NCBI RefSeq assembly: GCF_002161805.1
Contig: NZ_NFIP01000001.1
Coordinates: forward strand, 310,001 to 374,000
DNA: 64,000 nt
Direction of reading: 5' to 3'
Origin: Collinsella sp. An307
GTDB lineage: Bacteria; Actinomycetota; Coriobacteriia; Coriobacteriales; Coriobacteriaceae
Program-made: the position numbers and the translations under genes
In this document: positions 49,232 to 59,703 of the stretch, piece after piece
How positions within the stretch are numbered: the first letter of the stretch is position 1
Layout: each line of letters opens with the position of its first letter
Notes under the pieces: generated by a model
Told to the model about the DNA's origin: nothing
The model's input: only the letters and a program-made list of their open reading frames with translations
The model's database searches: none

Positions 49232-51006
49232 TTAAGCCTCCTTTCCTGCGGCAACGTCTTCATCTTGGGCGGCGTGGACGTCAAAGTCGCCCGTGCCTTC
49301 CGCCTGAGACTCAAAGACGCTGCGGTAGATTTCGTTCGTCGCAACGAGCTCGTCATGCGTACCCACGGCGTTCACGCGGCCGCCGCTCATGACAACGATG
49401 CGGTCGGCGTCCTCAACGCTCGAGATGCGCTGGGCGATGATGATCTTGGTGGTGTCGGGGATGTAGGTCGTGAAGGCGGCGCGGATGCGCGCGTCGGTGG
49501 CGGTGTCCACGGCAGAGGTAGAGTCGTCGAGAATCAGCACCTTCGGGCGCTTGAGCAGGGCGCGCGCGATGCAGAGGCGCTGCTTCTGCCCACCCGAGAA
49601 ATTGACGCCGCCGCGTTCCACACGGGCGTTGAGGCCGTCCGACAGGCGCTCGACAAACTCGTCAGCTCCGGCGGCTCGGCAGGCGTCCATGAGCTCCTCG
49701 TCAGTGGCGTTCTCGTTGCCCCACCGGAGGTTCTCGGCAATCGTGCCGGAGAAGAGCACATTTTTCTGCAGAACGACCGAGACCGCATCGCGAAGCTCGG
49801 TGAGGTCGTAGGAGCGCATGTCGACGCCGCCGACCTTGACCTATCCCTCGGTCGCATCGTACAGGCGGCTGAGCAGCGAAACCAAGCTCGACTTGCCCGA
49901 ACCCGTGCCGCCGATGATGCCGATGGTCTCGCCGGAGGCGATGAGCAGGTCGATGTCCTCGAGCACGTTCTCGCCGTCGCCGGTGGCATAGGCAAAGCTC
50001 ACATGGTCGAAGTCGATCTGCCCGTTGGCGACGGGGAGACGGGCTCTGCCGGGTCGTGGATATCCGGCACCTCGTCGAGTGCCTGCGCGATGCGGTGCGC
50101 GCTCGCCATGCTCATGGTGATCATGACGGCGATCATGGAGAGCATCATGAGGCTCATGAGCATCTGCGACGCGTAAGAGAAGTCGCTCGTCAGCTGCCCT
50201 GTGGTCATGGTGCCGCCAACCACGAAATGCGCATCCAGCCACGATACGGCGATGATGCAGCTGTTGATGGCGATCATCATCACAGGGTTGTTGAGCGCGA
50301 CGATGCCCTCGGCGCGCACAAAGAGGCGATAGAGCTTGTTGGCCGCCTTGTGGAAGCGCTCCTTCTCGTACGCCTCGCGCACAAAGGCCTTCACGACGCG
50401 GATAGCACCGACGTTTTCCTGCACGCTCGCATTGAGGTCATCGTAGGTGTCGAAGACCTTGTTGAAGGTGCGCGTGGCGTTAGAGACGATGAGGGTGAAG
50501 GCGATGGCGAGGAAGATCGCCGCGACGATGATGACCGGGGAGAGTTCGGTCGAGATGGAGAGGAACATCACGAGGCTCGATACGAGCATGACCGGCGTGC
50601 GCACGGCGATGCGCAGAAGCATGAGCGCGGCGTTCTGGATGTTGGTGACGTCTGTGGTCATGCGCGTCACGAGGCCGGCGGTCGAGAACTTGTCGATGTT
50701 GCCAAACGAATAGGTCTGTACCTTGTCGAAGATGGCCTCGCGCAGGCTGCAGGCGTAGCCGGTCGCCGCCGTGGCAGAGAAGTACCCCGCAAGAAGACCG
50801 AAACCGAGGCTCAAAAACGCCATGACGAGCATGACCCCGCCATAGAAGAAGATAGCGTCCATATCGCCCGCCTCGATACCGCGGTCGATGAGATGCGCGG
50901 TGATGAAGGGGATGAATACCTCCATGACCACCTCGCCGACTGTGCCTATGACAGACAGCACGGCGTCGCGCTTGTAGAGCGCAAACGGCGCAAAGAGTTT
51001 TCGCAT
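49232..51006 (-). pseudogene. ABC exporter half-transporter (subunit B), frameshifted and TAG-interrupted
   Basis: The start is ATG 51006 (RBS GAAGGAAGC). The membrane domain is intact to DEVPDIHDPAEP. One base is missing near 50034 in a CCCC run, after which PVANGQIDFDHVSFAY continues in another frame. A TAG at 49843-49841 then interrupts YDATEG-VKVGGVDM. The nucleotide-binding domain has GGTGSGKSS, FSGGQKQR and LILDDSTSAVD; Asp replaces the catalytic Glu. This marks the degenerate site of heterodimeric exporters (TmrAB/LmrCD-like), so subunits A and B formed one pump. Two independent lesions indicate decay. Substrate unknown; the divergent LysR gene probably controlled it. Confidence 0.87.
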
Positions 51007-51105
51007 GCTTCCTTCGTTTACATTCGCTCGAAATTCATACGTTGGTAGTATGGCCCTGAACAACGATAATCAAAACGTCTATATTGCTATTATTGATAGA
51101 ACCTG

Positions 51106-51120
51106 TTTATCAGAGATAAA
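51106..51120. promoter_or_regulatory. palindrome in the divergent LysR/ABC promoter region
   Basis: TTTATC-AGA-GATAAA is a perfect 6-bp inverted repeat just before the LysR start (51131), in a 124-bp AT-rich gap between divergent genes. Placement and T-N11-A layout fit a LysR-type binding site. Confidence 0.55.
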
Positions 51121-51130
51121 AAGTGCTGCT

Positions 51131-52058
51131 GTGAACACGTTTCAGCTCTCGTGCTTTGTCGAGGTTGCCGCTACGCTCAACTTCTCTCAGGCGGCAAAGA
51201 ACCTTGGCGTTTCGCAACCGGCGGTGAGCCATCAGATTAAGGCGCTGGAGGACGAGCTTGGAGCGACTCTTGTCTCCCGGTCGACGCGAACCGTGTCGCT
51301 AACCGATGAGGGATTGCAATTACTGAGTTACGCAAATGACATTCTTTACCTTGCGGTACGCGGGTCGCGTCTGGTCTCCCGCAGCCACGCGTCGGCTACG
51401 CGCACATTGAGCATCGGTGTTCACGGCGGTATCGAGGCGATCGCCCTAGCGCCCGTGCTGCGTGGCCTTATCGAGGCGGAGCCCGATGTGACGCCCGATG
51501 TGCGCGTGGCCCCACACTCGGCATTGCTTAACATGCTCGAGAGCGGCACGCTCGATGTGGTGCTCGAGTACCGCGACCCGGCGGGAGCACCGGCCTCTGC
51601 CACCGTCTTCAAGCGAATCGCGGAGTCGCCGGCAGCTCTTATCTGCACGCATGATCATCCGTTTGCCCAGCGTGATAAGATTGACGCTGACGAGATCAAG
51701 CGCGCGGGACGTATTGCAATCTGCAGCCCTCATGCGTCACTTGCCGCAATCGATACGCTCCAGCGCAAGGTACTCGGGCACGTGAAGTCCGGAGGACGTC
51801 ATCATGTGCTCCGGCGTGGAGCCTACCGTTGCCCTTACAGCAGCAGGCGTTGCCGTTGCCGTACTCCCCAACATACCGGACATGACCGGCCAGGGTATCT
51901 ACGCGATTCCGGTGGAGGGCATTCCCGGTGTGGTCTTTGGCGTGCGCGTGCGGCGCGGACGATTATCGCCCGTGCTCAATGCCTTTATACGTGTGCTTTC
52001 TGCTGAGGCGGCGCGAAGTGCCAGAGCGGCGCGCGGCGTCAGCGCTCCATCTTTGTGA
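51131..52058 (+). pseudogene. LysR-family regulator, frameshifted
   Basis: The start is GTG 51131. The N-terminal winged helix is complete (FVEVAATLNFSQAAKNLGVSQPAVSHQIKALEDELG), and so is the first part of the effector domain. Near 51783-51800 a net +1 shift occurs: the product continues as SPEDVIMCSGVEPTVALTAAGVAVAVLPNIP in the next frame, to a stop at 52058. Read together they give a normal LysR protein of about 309 aa. As it stands, the effector domain loses its last 90 residues and gains a basic nonsense tail. It is divergent from the ABC exporter pair, which is also broken. The final 20 bp overlap the convergent MBL gene. A sequencing error cannot be excluded. Confidence 0.85.
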
Positions 52059-54455: not shown

Positions 54456-54561
54456 GGCGGACGCGTACCTACGGTCCGTAGGTAGCGTGCGGCGGGGGAG
54501 TCCCGCATACTCTGACGGCAGGGCGGCAACGATGCGTCGCAGATCAACCGGTAGAGGGCCT

Positions 54562-55173
54562 ATGGGAACCTATATCACGGCAGATACCATCAAAGTTCTG
54601 CGAGAGAAGCGCGCGCTTACGCAGCGGGCTCTTGCCGAGGCAGTCGGCGTGACGGATAAGGCGGTATCGAAGTGGGAGTCGGGGCGCGGCCTTCCCGATA
54701 TCTCACTTGTAGAGCCACTTGCTGCTGCGCTTGGTGTCTCGGTGGCTGAGCTTCTCACCGGCGAGGTGCGCCGGAACGCCAATCGGGCGGGCAATCCCTT
54801 GCGCGCTAAGTTCTACGTCTGTCCCATCTGCGGCAACGTGGTGTACGCCTTTGGAGAGGGAGCGTTCTCGTGCTGTGGTGTTAATCTGGTTCCGCTTGAG
54901 GCGGAAGAGCCCGATGGGGAGCACTGCATCAAAGTCGAGCGTGTAGAGGACGAGTGGTACGTTACGCTCGACCATCCTATGACGAAGGACCACTTCCTCA
55001 CGTTCTTCGCCTATGTCGCCCCAGACGGCGTCACGATCAAGAAGCTCTATCCCGAGCAGGAGGCAGGCGCGCGCTTTCGTATAGGGATGTCGGGCGTCAT
55101 CTATGCTTGCTGCAACCGTCACGGCCTCTTTCGCGTGCCCACGCCAAAGCACGTTCTGCACGCTCGTCCCTAG
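54562..55173 (+). CDS. XRE-type regulator fused to desulfoferrodoxin (superoxide reductase) domain
   Basis: 203 aa. Residues 5-65 are a classic XRE HTH (LREKRALTQRALAEAVGVTDKAVSKWESGRGLPDISLVEPLAAALGVSVAELL). Residues 84-196 read as a two-iron desulfoferrodoxin. Cys87, Cys90, Cys104 and Cys105 match the Fe(SCys)4 centre. His121, His138 (HPM), His144, Cys184 and His187 (CCNRHGLF) match the catalytic iron site. The lysine that normally precedes the first His in superoxide reductases is Glu120 here. It could be an iron- or superoxide-sensing repressor rather than an enzyme. RBS is weak (GTAGAGGG). Neighbours give no target hint. Domain reading is strong; the sensing role is inferred. Confidence 0.85.
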   Translation: MGTYITADTIKVLREKRALTQRALAEAVGVTDKAVSKWESGRGLPDISLVEPLAAALGVSVAELLTGEVRRNANRAGNPLRAKFYVCPICGNVVYAFGEGAFSCCGVNLVPLEAEEPDGEHCIKVERVEDEWYVTLDHPMTKDHFLTFFAYVAPDGVTIKKLYPEQEAGARFRIGMSGVIYACCNRHGLFRVPTPKHVLHARP

Positions 55174-55378
55174 TCGCTGTCATACGATAACAAGCCATCT
55201 GCCTGCGCCTCGCAACTGTGGGGCGCTTTTTGGTTGCCTGAATCTTGCTCATTTGCGTACCGGCGGTTGGTAGAATGGCAGTGCGCGCCACCCTAGACTT
55301 TTTGGTGCCGGCAAGATTGATACGAACATCCGGAGGCGCTGCGGCGCTGCGCCCCGGGCTCGACAGAGAGGCACCATT

Positions 55379-57096: not shown

Positions 57097-57159
57097 GTAT
57101 CGCTAGAGAACAGCTGAATAGATCTGTTGCAAGCCTGCTGTGGGGAGGGTGGTATCGCT

Positions 57160-58171
57160 ATGTCAAATGGTCATCTGAAGGAGCGTGCTGATAATGTGCC
57201 CTTATCGATTCTTCCGATGAGTCACGTGCTCGTGTTTTTGACGATGTATGTTGCAGGCGGCCTCTCGGTTCCGGTGCTGTCGCTTATGCTGATCGCGCGC
57301 GGGGCGACGGTCGAATTGCTACCCATCTCGATCGGTATTACGCTTGCCGTCACCTGTGCGTTTGAGGTCCCAAGTGGCGTTATATCGGATGTCTTGGGCG
57401 GGCGCGAGACTTGCCGCCCTAGATGGCCTGAATGGGCGCCTTGCGTTGCTGGAGACGGCGGGTACCGCTACAGGCGGATTGCTCGGCGGCATGATTGCGG
57501 CGCTCGACGGCACTTACGTGCTGCTTATTGTGTCTGTTGTTTTCCTCTCCCTAACATCTCTTGCGGGGGCCGTGATTGTCTTTCCAAGAGATGTGCGATG
57601 GGTTGGGGCGGGAATGCGAGAGGGTTTGCGCGCGGAGCTTGCCGCTATCGCTGCAATGGCGAAGCGCCCCGGCGATGTCAGGCTCGTGGTCGCGCTCTCG
57701 GTGTCGGCCGGTGTCGCCATGGTGACGCTCGAGACATATTGGCAGCTCGATCTCTTGGCGCTGATGGGTGACTCATGGGAATGGGTGCTGGGGATCGTGA
57801 GCTGCCTTGGTATGGTGATGGCTTCGGTGGGCAGCGCCTGCGCTATGCGCTGCGGTGGTCTTGCCGAGGAATTCTTTAGGGGGCAGGGGAGGCGTGGCCT
57901 GTACATCGTCCTGCACGCATCGATTCTCGTCGTGCTTGGTGCGCTCGCACTTGCGACATCTGCGGCGATGTTTGTGGGACTTTATACGCTCATGTACCTT
58001 TTGCTCGGTGCCCGCAGCGTTATCGAGCAGACGCTGCTACACAACGCGGTTTCATCGCAGGAACGATCGGGTATGGCGTCGGTGCAGTCGGTCGCCATTC
58101 GAGGCGGCGGCGTGCTCTCGTCCGCTGTAGGAAGCCCCCTTGTGCTGTTAGTCGGGTTAAGCGGAGTTTAG
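57160..58171 (+). pseudogene. MFS transporter, internally deleted and frameshifted
   Basis: The start is ATG 57160 behind GGGGAGGGTG. The first two helices (LPMSHVLVFLTMYVAGGLSVPVLSLML, then CAFEVPSGVISDVLGG) are in one frame. At about 57400 the sequence passes to another frame at ARLAALDGLNGRLALLETAGTATGGLLGG, which matches the fifth-helix region of MFS carriers, so roughly 60 residues (helices 3-4) are missing. The rest continues to GGGVLSSAVGSPLVLLVGLSGV and stops early, without a final helix. Not functional. It forms a remnant pair with the preceding ArsR-type gene. Confidence 0.85.
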
Positions 58172-58240: not shown

Positions 58241-58270
58241 TAGGTGTTCACCGCTGGGAGGGGTGTTGCC

Positions 58271-58852
58271 ATGGGTCTCGTTGATATCGCTGTAAAAAAC
58301 AATGGTTATATCTCCGTAGCTCAGGCAACGGCCGCCCATATTCCCCGTAGGTCTCTAACAGAGGCGGTCGAATCAGGGGAGCTCGTCAGGGTTGATCGCG
58401 GACTGTATGCTTTGCCCGATACCTGGGAGGACCCTCTTTTTATCGCGCAGCACCGATTTAGCAGAGGAACCTTCTCCGATGAAACGGCACTGTACCTACT
58501 TGGAATGACAGATCGTGTGCCGCTCTCGCTCACCATGACGTTTCCCCGTTCCTATAACACCAGGCCTGTCAAAGAAGCGGGAATCATCTGCCGAACATGC
58601 GCTGACGATGTGCTCGGTCTTGGAATATGTGAGTTGTTGACCCCGTATGGCAACACGGTCAGAGCTTATGACCTAGAAAGAACGCTCTGCGATATCGTTC
58701 GAGGCCAGAAGGTGGTCGACGTCCAAGTTGTTGTGCCCGCAATGAAGCAATATGCGGCTCTAAGAAACCGTGATCCCATGAAGTTGTTGGAATATGCACG
58801 CAAACTCGGCGTCGAATCGAAGATCAGGAGCTATTTGGAGGTGCTTCTGTGA
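58271..58852 (+). CDS. abiEi: AbiEi-type antitoxin, type IV toxin-antitoxin system
   Basis: 193 aa. The start is ATG 58271 behind GGGAGGGG. An N-terminal winged helix (GYISVAQATAAHIPRRSLTEAVESGELVRVDRGLYALPDTWEDP) is followed by the AbiEi C-terminal domain (FSDETALYLLGMTDRVPLSLTMTFPRSYN, AYDLERTLCDIVRGQKVVD). Its stop overlaps the toxin GTG by 4 bp. The family represses its own promoter and counteracts the nucleotidyltransferase toxin without protein-protein binding. Base composition (more A/T) differs from flanking genes, which suggests transfer. Confidence 0.93.
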   Translation: MGLVDIAVKNNGYISVAQATAAHIPRRSLTEAVESGELVRVDRGLYALPDTWEDPLFIAQHRFSRGTFSDETALYLLGMTDRVPLSLTMTFPRSYNTRPVKEAGIICRTCADDVLGLGICELLTPYGNTVRAYDLERTLCDIVRGQKVVDVQVVVPAMKQYAALRNRDPMKLLEYARKLGVESKIRSYLEVLL

Positions 58853-59703
58853 AAACGAAGAACGCGATGCAGCTGAAAGCGCTGATTAACAACAGGGCGC
58901 GGGCAGCGGGAATCAACCCCCAGGCCCTTATGCAGAACTACCTTATAGAGCGCTTTCTCGAGCGTCTTGCGCAATCAAGGTGGCGCGACGACGTGGTGGT
59001 CAAAGGAGGGGTGCTCATCGCATCGCTCGTTGGCGTTGAATCGCGCACCACCATGGATCTTGACACGACAATCAGGGGCTTCACCCTTAGTCATGAAACT
59101 GCCCAACAAGTGTTTCAAGAGGTGGCGTCCATTCCATGTGATGACGATTGGACGTTTCTGTTCGATCGTACTGTGGATATTCGGGAAACGGATGATTATC
59201 CCGGTATCCGCGTTCATCTCAAAGCCGTTTTTCCGCCGATGTCGGTGCCGTTTACCATTGATGTGACCACGGGTGACAAGATTACTCCGGCGCCCATCGA
59301 GTACGACTATCCCAAGTTGTTTGATGATGGCAGCATCAGGCTGCTCGCCTATCCTTTAGAAACGGTGTTGGCTGAGAAGCTGGAAACGGTGATTTCCCGT
59401 GGCGTCACCAATACACGGCCTCGTGACTTCTACGATATCCATGTGCTATGGAGACTTCACGGTGGGGAATGCAACATGCACACTCTGCGCGCGGCACTGG
59501 ATGCGACATGCGAGAAAAGGGGTAGTGTGGGGCGCGTGCTTCGCTGGGAGCGCGTGTTTGATGAAGTTGAGAACGATAGCCCGATGCAGTCTCTATGGCA
59601 AAAGTATATTCAAAGAAATGCCTACGCCGCACAGACCAGTCTTCAACAATGTTGCGCCACCGCTCGTGAGGTCATGCTGGCGATGCAGGTGTCGCCAGCA
59701 TGA
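58849..59703 (+). CDS. abiEii: AbiEii-type nucleotidyltransferase toxin
   Basis: 284 aa. The start is GTG 58849, overlapping the antitoxin stop by 4 bp. Active-site features of the DUF1814 nucleotidyltransferase family are the KGG motif (residues 52-54) and the Asp pair Asp70/Asp72 in TMDLDT. A third conserved area is DVTTGDKITP, and LAEKLETVISRGVTNTRPRDFYDIHVL is the usual motif III/IV segment. The toxin is thought to transfer nucleotides to tRNA acceptor ends and to abort phage infection. Length is normal. Confidence 0.93.
   Translation: MKTKNAMQLKALINNRARAAGINPQALMQNYLIERFLERLAQSRWRDDVVVKGGVLIASLVGVESRTTMDLDTTIRGFTLSHETAQQVFQEVASIPCDDDWTFLFDRTVDIRETDDYPGIRVHLKAVFPPMSVPFTIDVTTGDKITPAPIEYDYPKLFDDGSIRLLAYPLETVLAEKLETVISRGVTNTRPRDFYDIHVLWRLHGGECNMHTLRAALDATCEKRGSVGRVLRWERVFDEVENDSPMQSLWQKYIQRNAYAAQTSLQQCCATAREVMLAMQVSPA

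Follow-up and report, generated by a model that had tools for sequence, protein, structure and literature searches.

Under oxidative stress, SoxR and PerR couple a metal center to DNA binding, and they are work-alikes of the protein described here, in which a helix-turn-helix (HTH) precedes a desulforedoxin-like segment (Dx) and a superoxide reductase (SOR) module. SoxR is a [2Fe-2S] protein of the MerR family and PerR an Fe/Mn protein of the Fur family, and their folds and centers are unrelated to those of HTH-Dx-SOR. The HTH-Dx-SOR class itself was defined in 2011 by SORGOdb, on architecture alone and with 19 proteins (PMC3116461); as far as the accessible part of that paper goes, it gives no operator, target, or signal for the class. 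In the open-access literature we found no functional study of the fusion, and SORGOdb was the sole paper found to name it. Thus, the architecture was known, but the function was not. TrtA of Treponema denticola was considered as a characterized homolog and rejected: this XRE protein is 104 aa long, and its C-terminal region had no match among proteins of known function.

The 203-aa protein studied here, from a gut bacterium of the Coriobacteriaceae, is a further member of this known, uncharacterized class. It has the same order of parts, with an N-terminal HTH, a desulforedoxin-like segment, and an SOR module, and its CxxC-to-CC spacing is 13 residues, compared with CXXCX15CC in the general wording of SORGOdb (PMC3116461). 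In its DNA-binding part, the protein resembles regulators of the P22 c2, lambda CI, and SinR type, with which it shares the HTH fold (Z about 11–12) and, by prediction, a palindromic operator adjoining its own promoter. Unlike these, it carries an iron-site C-terminal domain in place of the CI or SinR dimerization domain, and its operator sequence differs. What is new here is this cis element, an operator dyad of which we found no earlier report. The gene and its associated elements lie as follows in the window (the whole 64,000-nucleotide stretch of DNA that was analyzed):

54467..54483, no strand assigned: predicted operator dyad ACCTACGG-T-CCGTAGGT; family consensus TCTACG-N3-CGTAGGT
54483..54488, + strand: hexamer TAGCGT at the −35 position, which resembles TTGACA poorly and takes its first T from the end of the dyad
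54506..54511, + strand: −10-like box CATACT, 22 nt after the dyad
54553..54558, + strand: ribosome-binding-site-like AGAGGG, read from the sequence
54562..55173, + strand: HTH-Dx-SOR gene encoding 203 aa; start codon ATG, stop codon TAG (included)
54589..54753, + strand: XRE/Cro-CI helix-turn-helix (HTH_3), aa 10–64; the closest solved fold is the P22 c2 repressor DNA-binding domain
54808..54888, + strand: desulforedoxin-like center I segment, aa 83–109, C87-x2-C90-x13-C104-C105
54895..55140, + strand: SOR-like center II domain, aa 112–193, with His121/138/144/187 and Cys184
55205..55235, + strand: terminator-like hairpin and T run 3′ of the gene; about one such match is expected by chance in the window

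The initial annotation had described an XRE HTH fused to a complete two-iron desulfoferrodoxin domain, and profile, structure, and model comparisons all agree with it. The N-terminal region matches HTH_3 at E = 1.6e-14 over aa 10–64. The C-terminal domain scores under the Pfam cutoffs (PF01880, 19.2 vs. 22.2 bits; PF06397, 15.9 vs. 23 bits) and matches TIGR00320 over aa 82–191 (E = 4.5e-12), where its 46.3 bits do not reach the equivalog cutoff of 146.9. Solved desulfoferrodoxins are matched at E = 4e-8 by the protein itself and at E = 5e-14 by a profile of 44 of its relatives. An AF2 model (mean pLDDT 89.6) superposes over aa 78–194 on two-iron superoxide reductases, best exemplified by 1y07 (Z 15.2; 114 residues, 1.8 Å) and also 1dfx (Z 14.0), and over aa 2–68 on the P22 c2 DNA-binding domain (2r1j; Z 11.9). 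As modeled, aa 81–194 are a full two-iron desulfoferrodoxin fold with nine ligands, alike in both respects to 1dfx, 2ji1, and 1y07, although identity to these is just 20–27% and the protein adds an HTH and has Glu for Lys48. The family alignment places the center I ligands at Cys87, Cys90, Cys104, and Cys105 (aligned to 1dfx and 1y07) and the center II ligands at His121, His138, His144, Cys184, and His187 (aligned to 2ji2); all nine stand where the annotation had named them. The CxxC-to-CC spacing of 13 is constant in the family, compared with 15 in classical desulfoferrodoxins. Orthologs are 67–90% identical within the family and about 40–60% in Clostridia, and fold and orthologs together rule out a chance origin of the domain call. 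Iron binding by the Dx-SOR domain is likely.

The ligand sphere of center II raises the question of catalysis. Glu120 had been placed at the Lys48 position, and alignment bears this out: the protein has no Glu-Lys pair before its first His ligand, with Gly119-Glu120 there instead. Across 96 aligned relatives, this position is variable (Glu in 20, Ala in 20, Asp in 14, Lys in 6, and others), and the lysine has therefore been lost family-wide. The suggestion that Glu120 weakens catalysis survives in part, since the family-wide variability fits relaxed catalysis, but the loss of Lys is not peculiar to this protein. Substitutions of Lys48 in known SORs slow superoxide reduction without abolishing it. 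These comparisons bear on whether the protein is mainly a superoxide reductase, or an iron or redox scavenger, whose attached HTH only tunes its own abundance. We consider this the strongest alternative, yet unlikely. All center II ligands and the four cysteines are retained in 64 of the 96 members, as an enzyme would lead one to expect, but the Lys48 position is not conserved, many members replace a center II ligand, and the same genome holds a separate, ordinary SOR-like gene (Pfam PF01880) that keeps the Glu-Lys-His motif.

A different division of labor would have an XRE autoregulator use its Dx-SOR metal, iron or zinc, for structure or partner contacts, with something else as the true signal. 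Two features of the alignment favor this: the Cys site is nearly invariant, its one change being His as the fourth ligand of center I in 13 of the 96 members, and center II erodes with distance. Distant Bacillus relatives have lost three of the five center II ligands and kept the Cys site; center II is therefore not essential to every member. Yet structure alone hardly explains a full His4Cys site in most members, and ligand changes at the two centers go together: Cys105-to-His is accompanied by His187-to-Asp/Glu in 13 of 13 cases, versus 6 of the 83 others (p = 7e-12, counting sequences rather than independent events). We judge a purely structural metal to be quite improbable. The members with a His in center I form a CxxC-x13-CH subgroup (L055, L057, L069, L071, L073, L076, L079–L082, L084, L088, and L105) that possibly has a changed metal site. 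Taken as sequence comparisons, the Lys48 variability, the ligand changes, and the separate SOR gene fit a domain under constraints unlike those of the enzyme.

The upstream DNA bears on regulation. We compared the regions 200 nt upstream of relatives, of which 70 were left once near-duplicates had been removed. The dyad TCTACG-N3-CGTAGGT occurs within two mismatches in 66 of these 70 nonredundant regions, 58 of them with none or one, against about 1% of random 200-nt segments drawn from these loci, a background that in part overlaps the sites themselves. Its carriers range from Coriobacteriia to Clostridia and a spirochaete. The geometry is fixed as well. In 60 of the 66, the best −10-like box starts at an offset of exactly 22 nt from the dyad, whose center thus falls near −43. 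This box averages 4.5 of 6 matches, compared with 2.7 in shuffled tails. The −35 hexamer averages 2.6 of 6, compared with 2.3 in shuffled tails (T fixed), and is nearly random save for its first base (T) and its third (G). An extended −10 motif (TGn) is present in 22 of the 66, 21 of them more distant, mostly clostridial, members. Thus, the promoter of the nearest relatives lacks both a clear −35 and TGn. In the window, a consensus scan of the region found no standard sigma-70 promoter.

An operator near −43 resembles lambda OR2, from which CI acts at PRM. A dyad at this position beside a nearly absent −35 slightly favors activation, that is, positive autoregulation, and a repressor covering the −35 position would also be compatible with it. 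The protein had been called an XRE repressor. The regulator half of that name is strongly supported by the conserved operator-promoter at its own gene across phyla, but the sign is not, as a site near −43 fits activation equally well or better. Autoregulation through the predicted operator in its own promoter is strongly supported by these comparisons.

How closely the dyad follows the gene was examined across genomes. Of 98 genomes from the same genus, family, and order, 35 encode the protein. The exact core, CTACNNNNCGTAGGTNG, occurs in 34 of the 98, almost always once and ahead of HTH-Dx-SOR, and most of these 34 Coriobacteriia genomes carry the gene. Among sites that lack an intact gene, three (G058, G002, and G090) have decayed remnants just 3′ of the site, and one (G014) is without a clear HTH-Dx-SOR remnant. 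The exact match in G001 looks like chance; its own gene has a one-mismatch site (L007). In Coriobacteriia, the operator is thus found essentially only at the HTH-Dx-SOR gene itself, a restriction that an enzyme tuning its own abundance would share.

Two cases are informative about what the operator follows. In G016 (L150), the site, the 22-nt spacing, and the −10 box precede the same HTH (57% identity) joined to a membrane-protein-like C-terminal part; because promoter and HTH are kept despite the swapped C-terminal domain, the operator follows the HTH. In G128 (L185), the operator-promoter precedes an XRE protein with a TehB-like methyltransferase C-terminal part. Since both XRE proteins carry the same promoter, the operator is not exclusive to the Dx-SOR sensor, and the two cases suggest that HTHs of this type share one operator code and have interchangeable sensors. 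The occurrence of the HTH type at the same promoter with other C-terminal parts would also suit a structural metal. It is harder to square with an HTH that is a relic or an oligomerization module of an enzyme and exerts no transcriptional control. The precedent would be the epoxidase HppE, an iron enzyme of solved structure that has an XRE-like HTH and is itself among the fold matches. From phylum to phylum, however, the dyad in the promoter accompanies the HTH, and it is still present where another C-terminal domain has been substituted; because of this conserved operator we regard a nonregulatory HTH as very improbable.

Beyond the Coriobacteriia, a second set comprised 150 genomes from the family of the Butyrivibrio genome G098. 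Of its 32 pattern matches, more than half are followed by an HTH-SOR gene or a truncated copy of one, and both copies in G098 are among these; the remainder lie ahead of FMN-reductase-like, CAT-like, AAT/CBAH-family, XRE-methyltransferase, or GNAT-like genes, or of nothing evident. A blind search of 398 Bacillota genomes for the dyad, 22 nt, and TAnnnT returned 11 sites in 10 genomes, versus 1 for a reversed-pattern control. All 11 lead to HTH-SOR, ten directly and one via an FMN-reductase-like gene whose end is separated from HTH-SOR by a few bases. In G573, such a gene follows HTH-SOR after a short gap, and in G178 one lies about 14.5 kb away from HTH-SOR, behind a separate copy of the promoter. 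This flavodoxin-fold gene therefore shares a promoter or operon with HTH-SOR in three genomes. As a possible electron donor, it could equally serve an enzyme.

Within the genome studied here, no second convincing operator site was found within two mismatches. That threshold gives 21 matches in all, among them this dyad read a second time from the opposite strand, whereas the reversed pattern gives 33. As further targets, the other matches were rejected as chance-like, none having both arms intact and a good −10. No neighbor of the HTH-Dx-SOR gene is conserved beyond the genus, which rules out a shared neighbor as a clue to targets. The terminator-like hairpin weakly suggests a one-gene transcript. 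On the simplest reading of the sequence, HTH-Dx-SOR would mainly control itself, its own gene being the main or only target in this genome.

Other genes of the window include a type IV toxin-antitoxin pair (58244–59703, + strand), in which an AbiEi-like antitoxin gene and an AbiEii-like nucleotidyltransferase toxin gene have a few bases in common. An MFS-like transporter (57127–58171, + strand) is apparently split over two overlapping frames, perhaps by a frameshift or an assembly error, and a LysR-like regulator (51005–52058, + strand) has an apparent frame change near 51800.

The architecture is widespread. The search across genomes that the initial annotation had called for found relatives encoded in at least 575 stretches of GTDB representative genomes; the 80 kept from these come from Coriobacteriaceae (Collinsella and Enorma), many Clostridia, Erysipelotrichaceae-like genomes, Bacilli, and Spirochaetes. 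The same genome also contains a second, broken copy (locus L002, G000:C1:207881-208351, − strand) with 72% identity over aa 43–197. It is frameshifted, lacks the first ~29 codons, follows immediately on a tyrosine-recombinase-like gene, and has no operator nearby. Six distant HTH-Dx-SOR genes (L090, L091, L092, L095, L096, and L100, from Lutispora, Caproicibacter, Anaerotignum, and Hathewaya) are nearly identical and share neighbors, including recombinase-like and MFS-transporter-like genes. A mobile element probably carries the regulator in these genomes, where the regions upstream of it are without the operator.

Our preferred explanation, to which we assign a probability of about 0.6, is a one-component autoregulated transcription factor with an iron-center, desulfoferrodoxin-like sensor domain. 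The XRE domain would bind, presumably as a dimer, to the dyad TCTACG-N3-CGTAGGT in its own promoter, and the two-iron C-terminal domain would be the sensory part. A change in its iron occupancy or redox state, brought about by superoxide, oxygen, or the supply of iron, would then alter DNA binding or promoter activity, and in some Clostridia the flavodoxin-fold FMN-reductase-like gene would come under the same control through a common promoter or operon. This explanation joins elements computed here (the fold, the ligands, the operator with its fixed geometry, and the gene co-occurrence) to others that we infer (iron binding, dimerization, a signal of superoxide, iron, or redox state, and the sign of control). 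A more specific proposal, which we hold tentatively and put somewhat below even odds, is that this widespread family of regulators in anaerobes uses the SOR fold as a direct sensor of superoxide or ferrous iron. Its Fe(His)4Cys site would then control an XRE activator that turns on its own gene and, in some lineages, that of a flavin reductase.

The 17-bp operator makes the HTH-Dx-SOR class testable, offers a marker for its targets, and points to an FMN-reductase-like partner. Should the iron center be the sensor, this would account for how certain anaerobes of gut and rumen could sense superoxide or iron, using a domain for which no sensor role is otherwise known. If the more specific proposal is true, redox-sensing transcription factors with an SOR-fold sensor would form a type of their own beside SoxR, OxyR, and PerR.
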